From: Erythrobacteraceae bacterium
GTDB lineage: Bacteria; Pseudomonadota; Alphaproteobacteria; Sphingomonadales; Sphingomonadaceae
Direction of reading: 5' to 3'
Assembly: GCA_024642525.1 (NCBI GenBank)
Contig: JAHEAX010000004.1
Coordinates: forward strand, 1,675 to 65,674
DNA: 64,000 nucleotides
Shown: positions 51,725 through 64,000 of the stretch, in pieces
Numbering within the stretch: the stretch's first letter is position 1
How the letters are laid out: every line of letters begins with the position of its first letter
The notes under the pieces: generated by a model
The model's database searches: none
Seen by the model: only the letters and a program-made list of their open reading frames with translations
What the model was told of the DNA's origin: nothing
Position numbers and translations under genes: made by a program

Positions 51725-52237
51725 ATGCGCCAACAGAGCGAAGCTTCGGTGGAAGAAATCCTCGAATCGATCAAGAAAGTGATCGCCCGGGATAACCGCG
51801 CCGGTGCCGCCGAAGAACGCCGCCAGCGCGAATCGGAAGGCATGCGCCATCTGGCCGCTGAAATGGGCGTGGAACCTGCGGACGAAGATGAAGCCGGCGA
51901 AGTGCTCGACCTCAGCATGGCAGATTTTGCCGAAGAAGCGCCCGAATCCGACGAATATGAAGAAAACCGTTTCGAAGAAGATCGGGACGATGACGACACG
52001 CCGCTGACCGCAGCGCCGATCCGCGATTCCATGCGTGAGAATTTCGCGGCGCTGGCTATGCTGGCACAGCCCGGCGCATCACCGCAGATCGTCCGTTCCG
52101 GCGAGACATCGCTGGAAGGGCTGGTGCGTGACATGCTGCGCCCGATGCTGTCCGAATGGCTCGATACAAACCTGCCCGGCATGGTCGAAAAGATGGTTCA
52201 GGCCGAAATTGCACGGATTGCGGGCAAGCGCGGCTGA
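51725..52237 (+). CDS. popZ: PopZ-family (DUF2497) polar organiser
   Basis: The 170-residue protein has the PopZ layout: N-terminal helix SVEEILESIKKVIARD, a central disordered acidic linker (about 60-105), and a C-terminal helical oligomerisation module LEGLVRDMLRPMLSEWLDTNLPGMVEKMVQAEIARI. In Caulobacter, PopZ condenses at the poles and tethers the ParB-bound centromere. Here it is 11.6 kb from the probable origin. It follows tolC as in other alphaproteobacteria, but an S9 peptidase replaces the usual valS behind it. Confidence 0.92.
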   Translation: MRQQSEASVEEILESIKKVIARDNRAGAAEERRQRESEGMRHLAAEMGVEPADEDEAGEVLDLSMADFAEEAPESDEYEENRFEEDRDDDDTPLTAAPIRDSMRENFAALAMLAQPGASPQIVRSGETSLEGLVRDMLRPMLSEWLDTNLPGMVEKMVQAEIARIAGKRG

Positions 52238-57008: not shown

Positions 57009-57668
57009 TTACCGATAGAAAATGTGCGTGTTGATAGTGGCGCGGGCCACTTTCTTCCGGCTCCACGACGGGCGCACATATTTCGCATGGAAATAAAGCG
57101 AATCGGCAGCCTGGCTGTCCCACAGCCCTTCATGGGCGATGCGGGCAACGGCTTTCGCCTGCTTCCACGCGGAAGAACCGCGCTTGATGCGGGGCATGGT
57201 GCCGCCTTTTACGAAAGAGAACTGCGAACGCTGATAGACGACGCCGCAATAGCTTTCGGGGAACAGGTTTGATTCCGCACGGTTGACCACCACTTGCGCC
57301 ACGGCCAGCTGGCCGGCAACGGGTTCACCGCGCGATTCAAAATAGATTGCACCGGCAAGACATTCCATCTCGCTCGACAGGGGTGCGGATGTCGGAACGC
57401 TGGAAACCAGCTCTTTCAGCGAAGACGCCTGCGGCAGGTCATTCGCCTTGGCATCGGCCTCGATTTCATCGGCCGTCTGCTCTGTGATTGGCTGAACCAC
57501 TTCTTCCGACACAAAAACCGGAACGGTTTCTTCGGTCAGGGTCTGGTTCCGGATTTCACGGACTTCGCCCTGTTGGGCAAAAGCGCCGGAACTTCCGGCG
57601 CTGGCAAGGGTTACTGTCAGTGTTGCGGCAATTGCCGACAACGTTGCAATATTGGTCTTACGACTCAT
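57009..57668 (-). CDS. cell-wall hydrolase of the SleB type
   Basis: The 219-residue protein has a signal peptide (cleavage near AFAQ), a Ser/Glu-rich spacer, and a C-terminal Hydrolase_2 domain (PF07486): MECLAGAIYFESRGEPVAGQLAVAQVVVNRAESNLFPESYCGVVYQ, then WDSQAADSLYFHAKYVRPSW. The catalytic Glu is in IYFESRGE. It cleaves peptidoglycan; relatives act on spores, but in alphaproteobacteria on the growing wall. The 200-base gap above it shows no gene or clear RNA. Confidence 0.85.
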   Translation of the reverse strand: MSRKTNIATLSAIAATLTVTLASAGSSGAFAQQGEVREIRNQTLTEETVPVFVSEEVVQPITEQTADEIEADAKANDLPQASSLKELVSSVPTSAPLSSEMECLAGAIYFESRGEPVAGQLAVAQVVVNRAESNLFPESYCGVVYQRSQFSFVKGGTMPRIKRGSSAWKQAKAVARIAHEGLWDSQAADSLYFHAKYVRPSWSRKKVARATINTHIFYR

Positions 57669-57870
57669 AATCTCGTTCGTTACGGCGGTTGACGAGCTCA
57701 GACGCAGGTGGGACCTGTTCGCGTTATTTGCGATTTAGGGATGGGTCCGATTTCAAGCCTGCCGGCCGCCACCCGTCTGCGTGCTTGTGCGGATGACCTC
57801 ATGTCTTCCACGACCGCCTGCGCACTCGGTAGCTGGCGGGCCAAATAGTTACATTTGAGACTAAGTCAAC

Positions 57871-58206
57871 TTAACCGTTCATCGATGCGATGAACCGTTC
57901 TCCATCTGCGATATCTACCTCCAGAATCCAGATATCGCTGTCCTGACGCTTGCGCCGGTCAAGGTAATCTTCAAATTCCTGTTTATTTTCAATAGTTTGA
58001 GTTTTTGCAACTTCGAACCGGCGCGAACCGTCCAATTGGGGCATTCTTTCGTAAAGTGTCCCGTTACGGTGTCTGTCGATGGTTAATATGAGGATGGTTC
58101 CGGCGTCTTTCTCGCCTTTGGCCAGGACGGTCGCAAAACCGCCCTGCGCCTGCACTGCACGAATCAGGCCGGAAACTTCGAGATGGGCCGGAAGACGGCC
58201 ATCCAT
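57871..58206 (-). CDS. DUF1491 protein
   Basis: The 111-residue protein has the DUF1491 pattern: LPAHLEVSGLIRAVQAQGGFATVLAKGEKDAGTILILTIDRHRNGTLYERMPQLDGSR, then DRRKRQDSDIWILEVDIADGERFI. The function is unknown. The ATG shares a base with the thioesterase stop (TGATG). The DUF1491-thioesterase-ptsN order is probably one operon. Confidence 0.85.
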   Translation of the reverse strand: MDGRLPAHLEVSGLIRAVQAQGGFATVLAKGEKDAGTILILTIDRHRNGTLYERMPQLDGSRRFEVAKTQTIENKQEFEDYLDRRKRQDSDIWILEVDIADGERFIASMNG

Positions 58207-58700
58207 CACGCCAGGTCCTGACCTGCGCTGTAGCCGGGCAAGCCTGACAACAGGATGTGGGATCGCATGAACGTGCCGGTGCCACGCCCGATTTCATCGC
58301 CTTCTTCGTCAATCAGGCGGGATTCGGCCACGTAAACCCTGCGCCGACCGCTGATCCAGCGGCCTTCGGCAATCACCCGGCCCGTGCGGACCGGCTTGGT
58401 GAAGTGAAGGTTGAACGAAGTTGTGAGCAGGAAACGGTCTGTCACCAGCGTATTGGCAGCATAGAAAGCCGCATCGTCCAGCATCTTGAAATAGATCGTC
58501 CCATGCGCTGCGCCCGCAGCATGGTAGCAAGCCTCGGTCACATCGAAGACCAGCTTTGAATGTCCTTCGCCTTCGATATGGAGGCGCGAGGCAAATAGCG
58601 AGTTTACCGGCGCGGATGCGTAAAGCCGTTCCAATGCGCGGTAATGCAGGGCAGCGCCCGGTGCCGCTTGTCCAGAAGATCCCTGATCAGGCGGCGTCAC
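58206..58700 (-). CDS. hotdog-fold thioesterase (PaaI-like)
   Basis: The 164-residue protein has the hotdog core with FDVTEACYHAAGAAHGTIYFKMLDDAAFYAANTL, typical of the PaaI/YbgC-like thioesterases, and ends in SFNLHFTKPVRTGRVIAEGRW. It would hydrolyse acyl-CoA thioesters. The GTG at 58700 is chosen since it lies behind GCGGGA; a TTG two codons earlier is possible. Either start overlaps the end of ptsN. Confidence 0.8.
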   Translation of the reverse strand: MTPPDQGSSGQAAPGAALHYRALERLYASAPVNSLFASRLHIEGEGHSKLVFDVTEACYHAAGAAHGTIYFKMLDDAAFYAANTLVTDRFLLTTSFNLHFTKPVRTGRVIAEGRWISGRRRVYVAESRLIDEEGDEIGRGTGTFMRSHILLSGLPGYSAGQDLA

Positions 58701-59160
58701 GGTCAATCCCGCTTCCGGAAATATTGGTAAGAAGCGCGTTCAACGCTTCGGCATCGGCCGCATTGACCAACGCATCATATGTCGCTTCGTCGCGGACCAT
58801 GCGCGAAATGGCGGCAAGGGCGTGAAGGTGGGCAACGCCTGCATTGCTGGGCGAAAGCAGGCCGATCACCAGATCCACCGGCATCGCGTCAGCCGAATCG
58901 AAATCAACCGGCGATTCGAGGCGCAGCAAAGCTGCCACGGGGCGCGTCAGATCATCCATCCGCGCGTGGGGAATAGCGACCCCGCTGCCGAAACCGGTGC
59001 TGCCGAGTTTTTCACGCTCTTCCAAACCTTCGAGAACTTCGTCCTGATCGAGCGAATAGCTGTCTGCCAAACGCTTCGCGAGGGTTTCAAGGATTCGCTG
59101 CTTGTCAGTCGCGCCAACGATGGCAACGGCTTCGGGCAACAGTTTGAAATTTGCGTTCAT
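58687..59160 (-). CDS. ptsN: nitrogen-PTS EIIA protein
   Basis: The 157-residue protein is an EIIA(Ntr): phosphorylated His in VAIPHARMDDLTRPVAALLRLE, and LVIGLLSPSNAGVAHLHALAAISRM. It accepts phosphate from NPr and modulates potassium and stress systems. It follows raiA on the same strand with a gap of 153 bases that contains an inverted repeat. Confidence 0.92.
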   Translation of the reverse strand: MNANFKLLPEAVAIVGATDKQRILETLAKRLADSYSLDQDEVLEGLEEREKLGSTGFGSGVAIPHARMDDLTRPVAALLRLESPVDFDSADAMPVDLVIGLLSPSNAGVAHLHALAAISRMVRDEATYDALVNAADAEALNALLTNISGSGIDRDAA

Positions 59161-59215
59161 GGCTCAAAATACGTCAATCGGTTGCGACCCGGGATACGCG
59201 GATTAAACCCCGCTT

Positions 59216-59247
59216 CTGCCTGCATCCAGAATTTCGAAAGCAGGCAG
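59216..59247. repeat. inverted repeat between raiA and ptsN
   Basis: CTGCCTGC (59216-59223) pairs with GCAGGCAG (59240-59247). It may be an mRNA stem-loop separating the two genes. There is no T run. Confidence 0.35.
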
Positions 59248-59313
59248 GACCCAGAAAAATGGTCAGGCGAAAGGCCCAGAAACCACCATTCTAACGGGCG
59301 GCAAAAGGGGCCA

Positions 59314-59877
59314 TCAATGCGGTTCGACCCAGCCGATCGATCCGTCGTGGCGGCGATAGACCATATTATGCCGCCCTGTTCCAGCATTTTTGAAGAACAT
59401 GGCATTGGTATCACGCAGATCCAGCATCATCACAGCATCGGCAACGCTCGATTCGGGGATGTCGACTTTTGTCTCGGCAACGATGAGCGGCGCATCGGCC
59501 ACTTCTTCCACATCCTGTTCCTGCGGGGCGAAAATGCGGTAAGCCGCTTCTTCTTCCTTCGACGCATGGGCTGATTGTTCGTGCCGGTCGTTCAGCCGGC
59601 GCTTGTAGCGGCGCAGCTGCGTGTCAATCTTGGCGGCTGCCTGGTCCAGCGCCAGATGCGCGTCCTGCGCTTCGCCGTGACTTTTGACGATCAACCCTTG
59701 CATCACATGGGTCACAATGTCGCAGCTGAATGCGCCTGCGGGCGCTTTGCCGAAAGTGACGTGCGATGACAGGGCGCGATTGAAATATTTTTCGACTATC
59801 CCGTTCAGGCGCTCTGCTGCGTGGTCCTGCAGTGCGGCACCTGTTTCCATCTGGTGGCCTGAAACGCGAATATCCAT
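59314..59877 (-). CDS. hpf: long-form ribosome hibernation factor HPF/RaiA
   Basis: The 187-residue protein has the N-terminal HPF domain (MDIRVSGHQMETGAALQDHAAERLNGIVEKYF, then HVTFGKAP) and a C-terminal dimerisation part (SSVADAVMMLDLRDTNAMFFKNAGTGRHNMVYRRHDGSIGWVEPH). It binds 70S ribosomes and forms 100S dimers in stationary phase. The ATG has AGAGG seven bases upstream. An earlier in-frame ATG would add 27 residues that look like intergenic sequence. Confidence 0.93.
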   Translation of the reverse strand: MDIRVSGHQMETGAALQDHAAERLNGIVEKYFNRALSSHVTFGKAPAGAFSCDIVTHVMQGLIVKSHGEAQDAHLALDQAAAKIDTQLRRYKRRLNDRHEQSAHASKEEEAAYRIFAPQEQDVEEVADAPLIVAETKVDIPESSVADAVMMLDLRDTNAMFFKNAGTGRHNMVYRRHDGSIGWVEPH

Positions 59878-59945
59878 CGAATTACCTCTTATGTTATAGG
59901 GATCGCCCAGATACGGATCGGGAGACCCGGTTGGTTTTGACGAGT

Positions 59946-60635
59946 TCATCCGCCCCACAGCGGCGACTTTATCTCCTTCATAAACTCCTGATGTCGTCTA
60001 AGTTCCTCGGCAGTGGCAGAATGGGGCCGCGGTTCGCGCCTGTTCTGCATAACCTGGGTTTTGGCGGGCATTGCCAGGATATTTGCCGATCCGGCTTCCT
60101 GGCTTGCGAGTTCCAGACCGATCTGGCGGCCGCCGGTCAATTCAACGTAAACCTGCGCCAGCAATTCGGCATCGAGCAATGCGCCATGTTTTACTCGGTG
60201 GCTTCGGTCCACACCGTAGCGGCTGCACAATGCATCGAGCGAAAGCTTGGCACCGGGGTGCTTCTTGCGCGCAATCGCCACGGTGTCGATCATCCGCGAC
60301 ATGCACACAGGTTCCATGCTCGCAATTGTCAATTCGGCATTGAGAAAGCCGAAATCGAACCCGGCATTATGCGCCACCAGCGGCGCATCGCCTATGAAAT
60401 CAATCAGTTCCGAAGCGATATCGGCAAACAGCGGTTTGTCGGCAAGAAAAGCAGCCGACAGGCCGTGAACGGCCTCTGCCCCTGCGGGCATATCACGCTG
60501 CGGATTGTAATAGGCGTGGTAGCTGCTGCCGGTGGCAACGCGGTTGACCATTTCGATGCAGCCGATTTCGACCATACGGTCCCCCGTTCTGGGATCCAGA
60601 CCGGTCGTTTCGGTATCGAAAACAACTTCACGCAT
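59946..60635 (-). CDS. dnaQ: DNA polymerase III epsilon subunit
   Basis: The 229-residue proofreading 3'-5' exonuclease has Exo I (FDTETTGLDP), Exo II (HNAGFDFGFLNAEL) and Exo III (HGALLDAELLAQVY) motifs. The C-terminal part (residues about 190-229) should bind the polymerase alpha subunit. It follows coaE by about 50 bases. Starting at MREVVFDTETTG removes 12 upstream residues that read as non-coding. Confidence 0.95.
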   Translation of the reverse strand: MREVVFDTETTGLDPRTGDRMVEIGCIEMVNRVATGSSYHAYYNPQRDMPAGAEAVHGLSAAFLADKPLFADIASELIDFIGDAPLVAHNAGFDFGFLNAELTIASMEPVCMSRMIDTVAIARKKHPGAKLSLDALCSRYGVDRSHRVKHGALLDAELLAQVYVELTGGRQIGLELASQEAGSANILAMPAKTQVMQNRREPRPHSATAEELRRHQEFMKEIKSPLWGG

Positions 60636-60686
60636 TGAATATACTATCGGCCCGAGATCGGCACTGTGCAAGGGGTCTGGTCAAAT

Positions 60687-61301
60687 TTAGCTGCCAGAAT
60701 TTTTTGCTGCTTCCTGCTTCAACTGGTCCACCAGCCGCGCCACGGCAGCTACTGTTTCCGTATGGGTGCAGCCTGTATCAATGACATGATCGGCGCGTGC
60801 GCGTTTTTCCGCATCGGGAACCTGCAATGACAGGATGTGCGCGAATTTTTCGGGGGTCATGCCGGGCCGTGATAGCACCCGCGCCCGCTGCGTCTCGGCA
60901 GGGGCCGATACAACCACCACCTTGTCCACCTGGCTTTGGCCGTTTTTCTCGAACAACAGCGGAATATCAAAAGCAATGATGGGCGCGCCTGCATGTTCGA
61001 GCAGGAATTCCTGCCGCATGGCAGCCACCGCCGGGTGGACAATGCCTTCCAGCCACGCCAGCGCCTCTGCATCGCCGAAGACCTGCGCGCCCAGTTTCGC
61101 TCGGTCGACCCCTTCGGCGCCGGTGGTGCCGGGGAATGCACCTTCGATCTGTTCCAGCAAGGCGCCGTGCGGACCTTGCAGGACATGCACCGCAGCATCG
61201 GCATCGAACACGGGCACGCCCTGTGCGACCAGCATCTTTGCCACGGTCGATTTGCCCATGCCTATCGATCCGGTCAGGCCGAGTATAAGCGGCTTCTTCA
61301 T
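60687..61301 (-). CDS. coaE: dephospho-CoA kinase
   Basis: The 204-residue enzyme makes CoA from dephospho-CoA. P-loop [17 protein letters not shown] at the N-terminus, then [27 protein letters not shown] and the lid region [34 protein letters not shown]. Its ATG overlaps the aroE stop by four bases. Confidence 0.96.
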
Positions 61302-62152
61302 GCCAGCAGCCTCGCCCGCAATTCCGCGTCAAATTCGCGGGGCGGGCTTACGCCAAAGAATTTCTCGAACGCGGCCGCAGCCTGGCCGATCAGCATGGAC
61401 AAGCCATCAACCGTGCGGAAACCGGCGGCGCGCGCATCTGCCAAAAATGGCGTTTCGACAGGGTCGGTCACGATGTCATAGGCGATGCTGCCAGGCGGGG
61501 CATGGCTGAAGTGGAATTCCAACGGCGGCTGCCCGCGCATCCCCAGCGGGCTGGCATTGACCACCAGATCTAGACAACCTTCGCGGTCATCGAATTCAAA
61601 ATCCGTGGCTTTCGCAAAGTGGCTGAGCGGCGCGATGTGATGGTCATGCCCCGGCGCCAGTTCATCCAGCAACGCGCGGGCCTTGTCCGTGTTACGCGCT
61701 GCCAGCACCATCACCAAGCCTTGCGCGGCGAGCGAGGCGACAATCGCCCGTGCAGCGCCTCCTGCACCGATGATGCGGGCCATGCGAAAGAGATGTCCCT
61801 TGGCCAGATCGCCGGCCAGTGGTTCGAGAAAACCGGCAGCATCGGTGTTATAGCCAACCAGCTTGCCATCATCTTCGCGCACGACAGTGTTCACCGCGCC
61901 GATGGTTTCAGCAAGCGGGTCCAGCCGGTCCAGCAGCGGAATGATTGCCTGTTTGTGCGGCATGGTGACATTGCAGCCGAGCCAGTCAGCGTTCTGGCGC
62001 GATGTGGCGAGATATTCCGCCAATCCATCTGCTGTCACACGGTGGGCACGGTATTCAGCATCGATGCCAAGCCTTGCAGCCCAGAAATTGTGGATCGCAG
62101 GAGATTTCGACTGCGCAATCGGATCGCCGATGACTTCTGCCAGCTTGGTCAT
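61298..62152 (-). CDS. aroE: shikimate dehydrogenase
   Basis: The 284-residue NADP enzyme has [38 protein letters not shown] and the NADP loop [18 protein letters not shown], with NASPLGM. It reduces 3-dehydroshikimate in aromatic synthesis. It overlaps coaE and maf by four bases each. Confidence 0.96.
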
Positions 62153-62733
62153 GAGGGCAATTCCCCCAGATCACGCAAGGCTGACAGTACGGGCAACAAC
62201 GGCATCCCCAGCACAGTGAACTGGTCTCCTTCGATTGCCTCGAACAATTGCACACCCAGCGCCTCTACGCGGAAAACGCCTACGCAACAGGATACTTCGG
62301 GCCATTCGGCATCGAGATATGTTTCGATGAATTCGTCCGATAATTCGCGGACCTGCAAATTTGCCCGGGCCGCGTGCTGCCAGATAATCGTATCGCCGCG
62401 GGCAATGGCAGCCGCGCTGTGCAGTTGCATGGTCTTGCCGGAAAAGAACCGCAGATGGTCTGCCGCAGCACTGCGATCGACCGGTTTGTCGAACCTGCTC
62501 CCACCCACACTGACGAGGGAATCGCTACCCAGGATCAGCTGGCCGGGATAGGCGTTGCTGAGAGCTGCGGCCTTGGCCTTGGCCAGCGCCAGCGCGATTT
62601 CGGCAGAGCCATGACCGGCCAGACCTGCTTCGATACCGCGTTCATCGACATTGGCCGGCACGGCTTCATAGGCCACGCCCGCTGCATCCAGCATGGCGCG
62701 GCGCGATGCAGATTTTGACGCAAGGATGATCAT
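62149..62733 (-). CDS. maf: Maf-like nucleotide pyrophosphatase
   Basis: The 194-residue protein shows [29 protein letters not shown], then [18 protein letters not shown] and the late [35 protein letters not shown], typical of Maf/YceF-type enzymes that hydrolyse non-canonical nucleotides and influence division. It is the second gene from the origin on this side. Four-base overlaps join it to ppsR and aroE. Confidence 0.93.
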
Positions 62734-63575
62734 ATCGGCTTGGTCCCGATACGCGGTTCAATCTCGCGCTTGTCGCGTTCGTTATAAAGCTTGATCACGG
62801 CTGCGGCGGTTTCCTCGATCGAACGGCGGGTCACGTCGATCACCGGCCAGCCATTGTCAGCAAACATACGCCGCGCGAACTGGATTTCCTCGCGCACGCG
62901 TTCAGCATCGACATAAGATGTTTCAGTCGCTTCATTCAGGCTGAGCAGCCGGTTCCGGCGGATCTGCACCAGACGTTCGGGTGCCGTGGTCAGACCCACC
63001 ACCAGTGGATGGCGCAAACCATACAGGGCTTCAGGCGGGGGGCTTTCCACCACCAGCGGAATATTGGCCGTCTTGAAGCCGCGATTGGCAAGATAGATAC
63101 TGGTCGGTGTCTTGGAACAGCGCGAAACACCTGCCAGCACGATGTCGGCTTCTTCCCAGTTTTCCCAGCCAACCCCGTCATCATGGGCAATGGTGTAGTG
63201 GATGGCATCGACCCGGCCGAAATAGGCTTCGTCCATGATATGCTGTCGGCCGGGCCGGCCGTGGGCTTCCTGCCCCAGCTGGCTTTCCAGCGCTTCTGTC
63301 ACTGCATCGAGCGCTGGCACCGCCGGCAGTCCCAGCTGGCGGCAATGGTCTTCCAGCCGTGCCCGCGTCTCGGGATTGACCAGCGTAAACAGGACAAGGC
63401 CCGGATTGTCTGCCAGGTCAGGCACGATCCGGTCGAGATGCTGGCGCGAACGGACCATGGGCCAGAAGTGGCGCACGATCTCGGCATCCTCGAATTGGGC
63501 GAGGGCGGCCTTGGCGACCATTTCGAGCGTTTCGCCCGTGGAATCTGACACCAGGTGAAGGTGGAGACGGCTCAT
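62730..63575 (-). CDS. ppsR: pyruvate-phosphate dikinase / PEP synthase regulatory protein (RP001 family)
   Basis: The 281-residue kinase/phosphotransferase has [25 protein letters not shown] and the ADP-binding [27 protein letters not shown]. It phosphorylates and dephosphorylates pyruvate-phosphate dikinase or PEP synthase. The same gene, RP001 in Rickettsia, abuts the origin in other alphaproteobacteria. The start at 63575 ([14 protein letters not shown]) is preferred to one 13 codons upstream. Confidence 0.93.
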
Positions 63576-63894
63576 AAACAGGGGGTCTTGGTGGCTGTGG
63601 ACAAGAATTGGCATAAACCACGGGACAAAGCTGACGACAAGTTAAGCCGCCGATTCCATGCCCGTTACCAGCCATTCCCGACCGGCTTTGTGGACAGCAC
63701 AGGGCGGTTTTGAACAGCTTGGGGACAGTGGGGATAAACTCTGCTTGACGCGAAGCCGTGCGGATTCGGAAGGCTGACAAGCCTGTTCAAAGCGGGACAA
63801 ATCGGGCAGAACGCGAATGTCCCCGATATCCACAGGGCCAACAGACTCCTACAATCCTTATTAAATACTTTATTATTTTGATTGGACTCCTTCG
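63576..63894. other. oriC: probable chromosome replication origin (oriC), hemE-RP001 interval
   Basis: The 319-base gap between divergent ppsR and hemE holds near-consensus DnaA boxes (consensus TTATNCACA): TGTGGACAA at 63596-63604 (reverse, one mismatch), TGTGGACAG at 63689-63697 (reverse, two mismatches), TGGGGATAA at 63729-63737 (reverse, one mismatch) and ATATCCACA at 63826-63834 (forward, one mismatch). An AT-rich tract at 63851-63882 is a candidate unwinding element. It is in the position of the Caulobacter and Rickettsia origins, beside the RP001 homologue. No gene is seen in it. Confidence 0.85.
63851..63882. other. AT-rich DNA-unwinding element candidate
   Basis: About 32 bases with only a handful of G or C lie between the last DnaA box and the hemE start. 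It is the most AT-rich stretch I noticed in the window and is placed as a DUE would be. Confidence 0.55.
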
Positions 63895-64000
63895 ATGCCC
63901 GGTCTTTTGATCGAAACCTTGCGCGGAAACCGTGCTGACCAGGTCCCCTTGTGGCTCATGCGACAGGCTGGTCGATATCTCCCCGAATACCGCGCATTAC
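63895..64000 (+). CDS. hemE: uroporphyrinogen decarboxylase, 5' part (cut by window edge)
   Basis: The 35 visible residues read [35 protein letters not shown], which contains the HemE signature [16 protein letters not shown]. It decarboxylates uroporphyrinogen III to coproporphyrinogen. In Caulobacter hemE lies next to the origin, and its promoter is inside it; the same is likely here. Confidence 0.96.

Follow-up and report, generated by a model that had tools for sequence, protein, structure and literature searches.

Where does replication of this chromosome begin, and which sites besides those for DnaA might govern its start? We addressed both questions in a 64,000-nt window, the whole stretch of Erythrobacteraceae DNA that was analyzed, which is contained in contig C51 (145,688 bp; window base = C51 base minus 1674) of a 2,529,388-bp draft genome. 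An initial annotation had placed a probable chromosomal origin (oriC) between ppsR and hemE, and our scans verified the 319-base gap between these genes at 63576–63894. The left flank, ppsR (RP001, COG1806 or DUF299 family; 62730–63575, minus strand), matched PRK05339 with 331 bits against a cut-off of 225. The right flank, hemE (63895–64000, plus strand), diverges from it and is truncated by the window end. Its 35-aa fragment matched TIGR01464 (E = 4.2e-11) and stayed under the whole-protein cut-off because the gene is cut there; read from contig C51, the complete frame is 341 aa long. Left of the gap we counted ten consecutive minus-strand open frames (57009–63575), of which eight matched a family; ten is more than the seven minus-strand genes first described. 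The gene popZ (51725–52237; PopZ_fam, E = 1.3e-29, 104.5 bits, under the curated cut-off of 125) lies ~11.3–11.9 kb away, in line with the 11.6 kb given earlier.

Relatives were surveyed for the same arrangement. Of the 149 family genomes, 142, ours among them, gave a PpsR match; of the seven that had none (G020, G021, G073, G104, G136, G138 and G145), six are small (2.1–2.4 Mb) and one is 3.7 Mb. We compared 70 gaps, namely those of the 30 best-matching PpsR loci (one being our own genome) and 40 chosen lower in the list, hereafter the close and the further gaps. Results showed that hemE is the divergent neighbor of ppsR in all 30 closest loci and in all 40 further relatives, which is to say in our own genome and 69 relatives. 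Gap length varied from 315 to 431 bp in the close set and from 287 to 487 bp in the further set, in which hemE starts were extrapolated wherever the match set in a few residues late. Counts across these relatives are inflated by common ancestry, and the main safeguard is the comparison of conserved blocks with the variable spacers beside them.

We then scored DnaA boxes against the consensus TTATCCACA. With at most one mismatch, the gap contains three: box 1 (TTGTCCACA, 63596–63604, minus strand), a box starting at 63729 (minus strand) and box 5 (ATATCCACA, 63826–63834, plus strand). The mean for 319-bp segments of the contig was 0.03; three or more such boxes occurred in 0.06% of these segments and in 0 of 500 shuffles of the gap. 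Box 2 (CTGTCCACA, 63689–63697, minus strand) has two mismatches and raises the count to four, a number reached by 0.18% of the segments and 0.6% of the shuffles. The four near-consensus boxes described at the outset are therefore present at up to two mismatches, three of them at no more than one. The looser core TNTCCMCA added a box at 63720, so that box scan and alignment gave two abutting boxes (CTGTCCCCA and TTATCCCCA, 63720–63737, minus strand) in the middle of the gap, and the total of five such cores equaled the contig maximum (five). Across the 64-kb window, single near-consensus boxes were at chance level (7 found versus 6.2 expected), and we therefore took the clustering of boxes as the evidence. 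The cluster in the gap exceeds chance. Exact copies of TTATCCACA were absent from the gap, whereas seven occur elsewhere in the genome. In Caulobacter, the weak W-boxes are of the TCCCCA type.

The boxes recur in the relatives: at up to two mismatches, the 30 close gaps averaged 4.60 and the 40 further gaps 4.05, as compared with ~0.7 after shuffling. In box 1, every column of TGTGGA was kept in at least 27 of the 30 close gaps, and TCCACA was found no more than 75 nt from hemE in all 30. Box 5 adjoins the AT-rich tract that had been reported for the gap. This tract (63850–63879) is 87% A+T, and only 3 of the 145,658 30-mer positions of the contig are equally A+T-rich. Its composition and its position beside a conserved DnaA box suggest that it is the duplex-unwinding region.

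Chromosomal position offered evidence of a second kind. Four parS-like sites were detected in the genome (palindromes with up to two mismatches; zero control hits), all at C51:73,428–75,971, or 7.9–10.4 kb to the right of the gap. Such sites were present in each of the 26 complete relatives searched. In 19 of the 20 complete relatives for which every position was given, they lay 4.9–12.4 kb away on the hemE side, and four of the 20 (besides the exception, G133) had one additional site outside this range. Relative G133 had 17 sites, of which the nearest nine were 23–28 kb away on the ppsR side and the others scattered; in G034, three sites among those listed were scattered and far from its ppsR.

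GC skew, one of the checks suggested in the initial annotation, gave a mixed picture. The draft consists of 59 contigs, and skew was therefore computed on contig C51 and not over a whole chromosome. On C51 it was −0.0136 left of the gap and +0.0143 right of it, with the cumulative minimum at C51:71,498, ~6 kb right of the gap. For the complete relative G013 we took 20 stretches of 20 kb each, two of them placed close together at the gap. Of the stretches on the right, 10 of 11 had positive skew, and 8 of the 9 on the left had negative skew (p = 0.0014). In two-segment fits, the best split set the origin 143–278 kb to the right, and the second best set it at the gap, where sampling was denser; the terminus side fell at 1.87–2.00 Mb, a range that includes the antipode of the gap (1.88 Mb). 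Relative G049 gave a weaker contrast, with the expected sign in 6 of 9 and 6 of 11 stretches (p = 0.081); its best split lay 11–76 kb from the gap and its second-best split contained it. Skew in this group is weak and noisy. The change of sign lay near the gap, and the contig minimum and the best split of G013 did not fall on the gap itself.

Synteny, box clustering, the AT-rich tract, the parS-like sites and the nearby skew change together point to the gap at 63576–63894 as the single chromosomal oriC, an assignment that we regard as very probably correct, and the same evidence supports the earlier proposal that replication runs leftwards through the window. The gap could instead be only a divergent ppsR/hemE regulatory region on which DnaA acts as a transcription factor, with the origin at another place such as the vicinity of dnaA on contig C49. 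Two divergent genes do flank the gap, which has promoter-like conserved spacing; DnaA boxes also occur at another promoter, that of ccrM (see below), and the skew minimum does not coincide with the gap. However, the parS-like sites cluster on the same contig, skew changes sign nearby and the AT-rich tract abuts a conserved DnaA box. Moreover, passages of PMC1914354 describe origins in the hemE-RP001 interval in Caulobacter and Rickettsia, as the initial annotation had stated. We consider this alternative highly improbable. The location of dnaA on C49, separate from contig C51, fits an excerpt of PMC8116508, according to which Sphingomonadales do not retain dnaA close to ori.

On the assignment of the gap as oriC, the known role of DnaA suggests a sequence of events. 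DnaA would bind the five boxes, with box 1 and the box adjoining the AT-rich tract as anchors, and the abutting middle pair would be filled as DnaA accumulates. The AT-rich tract between the last box and hemE would then melt, and bidirectional forks would leave leftwards via the window and rightwards via hemE and the parS cluster. A further module in mid-origin, described below, resembles a GcrA/CcrM promoter that would read to hemE across the AT-rich tract.

An origin at hemE is not new, because this location has been published for Sphingomonadaceae (PMC4741004, in the part available). Less expected is that the origin contains two conserved modules that are not DnaA boxes, and these merit follow-up. 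The first is supported by column conservation and pattern counts. It consists of the element GGCATAAACCACGGGA (63610–63625) and, at a constant 12-nt spacing from it, GACAAG (63636–63641). The pattern ATAAACCACGGGA-N10-GACAAG was present in 30 of the 30 closest gaps, own included (29 of 29 without it). The form ATAAACCA[CT]GG was found in all 30 close gaps and in 12 of the 40 further ones, 11 of which keep the GACAAG spacing. Thirteen columns of the element averaged 29.5 of 30 identical bases, versus 17.1 for the next ten bases. An exact scan of genome contigs for ATAAACCAYGGNA-N10-GACAAG returned at least 118 stretches; among the matches listed, 112 of 118 fell at the ppsR-hemE locus, of which 100 were flanked by both genes, 10 by ppsR alone and 2 by hemE alone; the other six were elsewhere. 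Also among these matches, the named loci nearest to the window belonged to Erythrobacteraceae bacterium, Sphingomonadaceae bacterium, Pelagerythrobacter, Parerythrobacter and Tsuneonella, at ~71–73% DNA identity over 4 kb. In our own genome the 11-mer is present in two perfect copies and the long form in one.

A class-wide scan of 290 genomes for the 29-nt element with up to two mismatches, with the reversed pattern as control, matched 28 of the 290, versus at least 30 for the control. Zero-mismatch matches were seen only in the family members G000 (our own genome), G012, G037 and G098 among the matches listed, and none was seen in the family member G086. In 28 of the 40 further gaps the exact ATAAACCACGG element was lacking. 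Fifteen of these 28 have TGTTGGCAA and 14 have TAA[AG]CCCCG, whereas none of the 42 gaps with the element has either. Because these two motifs are restricted to gaps that lack the element, different branches seem to retain different extra origin elements.

What this first module does is a matter of two readings, and it could be a ppsR promoter read leftwards or the site of a regulator. Under the former, the module would be merely a minus-strand promoter (TTGTCG, 17 nt, and TTTATG preceded by TG) with no role in replication. The spacing is constant in all 30 close gaps although the intervening bases vary, 17 nt is canonical, and the module lies ~37–66 nt before the ppsR start. Against this, the hexamers are poor, and a sigma-70 consensus scan of the gap returned no promoter and no −10 hexamer. 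In addition, the best-conserved bases include CCACGG, which would be placed in a normally variable spacer. We judge the chances of the promoter reading to be even.

The second module, TTGAC-N13-GATTC (63745–63767, plus strand), is supported by column conservation and is directed at hemE. Its GATTC belongs to a set of four GANTC (CcrM) sites in the gap, the others being at 63652–63656, at 63844–63848 (between box 5 and the AT-rich tract, and supported by column conservation) and at 63885–63889 in the hemE leader. GANTC sites averaged 4.63 per gap in the 30 close gaps and 4.90 in the 40 further gaps, versus ~1.4 in shuffled sequence. The full pattern, TTGAC-N13/14-GANTC, occurred in 28 of the 30 close gaps (own included) and in 12 of the 40 further gaps; shuffles gave 0.7% even with a looser N10–18 spacer. 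The blocks around TTGAC and GANTC averaged 25.9 and 25.7 of 30, and the intervening bases 13.5. Within the module, GANTC took the form GAKTCK in 24 of 28 cases, as compared with 14 of 111 for other GANTC sites in the same gaps on the same strand. The leading Y of the longer form YGAKTCK was poorly kept, with C or T in 13 of the 28 modules.

The 100 named gaps with both flanks, drawn from the matches listed, provided a further sample. They were selected by the ATAAACCACGGGA/GACAAG element alone, and some of their species may overlap with the 30. Among these gaps the module was present in 65 (shuffles 0.05%), and GAKTCK was found in 64 of the 65 modules versus 63 of 394 other GANTC sites. The module thus looks like a GcrA/CcrM promoter towards hemE, judged by its sequence. 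Genes resembling ccrM and gcrA are present in the genome, with PF18755 and PF07750 above cut-off, and a CcrM-like protein was encoded in all 59 family genomes compared, ours among them. Counting against this reading are the failure of the sigma-70 scan to find a −10 hexamer, the poorly kept leading Y, and the Brevundimonas motif and Caulobacter ccrM-deletion results cited below. Our literature search, which is not proof of being unpublished, found no title among the matches listed on a GcrA/CcrM-type origin promoter in sphingomonads.

The same type of module stands at ccrM. TTGAC-N14-GANTC, with a spacer of exactly 14, preceded ccrM in 26 of 30 loci, ours among them. In 19 of the 30 an exact DnaA box occurred in the 160 bases before the gene, and 18 had one no more than 60 bases away. 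DnaA may control the methylase gene. In our own genome, one of only seven exact boxes directly follows the module, 15 bases ahead of the ccrM-like gene (C16:38547–38583; positions 1473–1509 of locus L004). Thirteen of the 30 regions upstream of ccrM (loci L260–L289) also contained TTAACCAT, and seven contained TTAR-N7-TTAA. The former resembles a CtrA half-site, and because of these motifs CtrA may still act on ccrM.

By a count over the genome, the TTGAC-GANTC pattern does not mark a broad regulon. In our own genome it occurred 11 times and its reverse 10 times, and eight of its 11 occurrences were inside mechanically called open frames. The three outside them were those at oriC, at ccrM and at C10:49279. 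This third site (TTGAC-N14-GATTC, C10:49279–49302; positions 1501–1524 of locus L292) is followed, after ~209 bases, by an open frame that spans at least 438 aa and has no assigned function.

Other candidate elements were sought in the gaps. A perfect CtrA site, TTAA-N7-TTAA, was found in 0 of the 70 gaps and in 0 of the 100 named gaps among the matches listed. Sites with one mismatch numbered 0.10–0.12 per gap versus 0.05–0.07 in shuffled sequence. Our own gap has six matches at two mismatches versus ~1 expected, four of which start in the AT-rich tract; the group means at this threshold were close to expectation (1.80 versus 1.30 expected and 1.05 versus 1.17 expected). With no perfect site in any of the 70 gaps, the CtrA sites of a Caulobacter-type CtrA-controlled origin are lacking here, although the six loose matches in our own gap and the influence of CtrA on replication in Sphingomonas melonis (see below) point the other way. 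For IHF, one of two loose consensus forms matched once, at 63871, and ~4% of contig segments have as many. DnaA-trios (at least three within 16 bp of a DnaA box), scored with our own coding of the rule as given in passages of PMC8287927, were absent from our gap. They occurred in 15 of the 30 close and 14 of the 40 further gaps, below the control fractions of 0.65 and 0.68, and an origin of the BUS type was accordingly not supported.

We also considered whether the conserved non-DnaA blocks might be explained by a small RNA made within oriC. Such an RNA would be comparable to CcnA, which Caulobacter transcribes from its origin (PMC8959179, in excerpt), and the second module is a conserved, promoter-like sequence directed into the right half of the gap. 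However, no Rfam family matched in the gap (one sub-threshold hit, E = 2.6, lay outside it), a consensus scan of the gap found no terminator, and the conserved blocks are short with variable spacers between them. We regard an added small RNA as improbable.

Put together, the two modules allow a speculative model, which we consider unlikely. The origin of the Erythrobacteraceae-Novosphingobium group would be wired to the CcrM/GcrA methylation clock and not to strong CtrA sites. Passage of the fork would leave the TTGAC-GAKTCK promoter hemimethylated, which would alter hemE transcription across the unwinding region and, with it, the chance of re-firing. The matching TTGAC-N14-GANTC promoter of ccrM, often accompanied by a DnaA box, would close a loop of DnaA, origin and methylase, and a lineage-specific origin regulator would bind at the ATAAACCACGGGA element. 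With one of the two modules resembling the GcrA/CcrM type and common to ccrM, a direct test of methylation-linked origin control is feasible in a free-living environmental bacterium. The assignment of oriC would itself fix the replication origin of this draft genome, and hence gene order and dosage.

Comparison with described origins places the gap among known relatives. In the available text of PMC4741004, oriC is predicted at hemE in Sphingopyxis granuli, and most Sphingomonadaceae in DoriC are said to be likewise; the Sphingopyxis origins share conserved DnaA boxes and a DUE. The gap thus resembles that of S. granuli TFA and its relatives in its hemE intergenic location, its conserved boxes and its unwinding element. 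It differs in the TTGAC-GAKTCK module and the ATAAACCACGGGA element, which go unmentioned for Sphingopyxis in that portion of the paper. Regarding CtrA in this order, an excerpt of PMC8116508 states that Sphingomonas melonis tolerates deletion of ctrA, yet CtrA influences replication there.

The origin of Caulobacter crescentus, Cori, is similar in lying between hemE and the COG1806 gene and in having weak DnaA boxes and an AT-rich region (PMC1914354 and PMC4468827, in the parts available). It also has GANTC sites, as here (PMC3973325, in excerpt), and passages of the same source report that deletion of ccrM in Caulobacter keeps DNA-content profiles and initiation normal. Cori contains five CtrA sites, whereas none of our 70 gaps has a perfect TTAA-N7-TTAA, and among the Rickettsiales hemE origins several have CtrA-like sites according to excerpts of PMC1914354. 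The GAKTCK of our module is close to the extended motif YGAKTCK described for Caulobacter GcrA/CcrM promoters in the available part of PMC7987155, but here the leading Y is not conserved and no −10 hexamer was found; the same part describes Brevundimonas as having no preferred extended motif apart from a slight leading C. These comparisons suggest that one hemE-RP001 address carries extra control sites specific to each lineage: strong CtrA sites in Caulobacter and two non-DnaA modules here.
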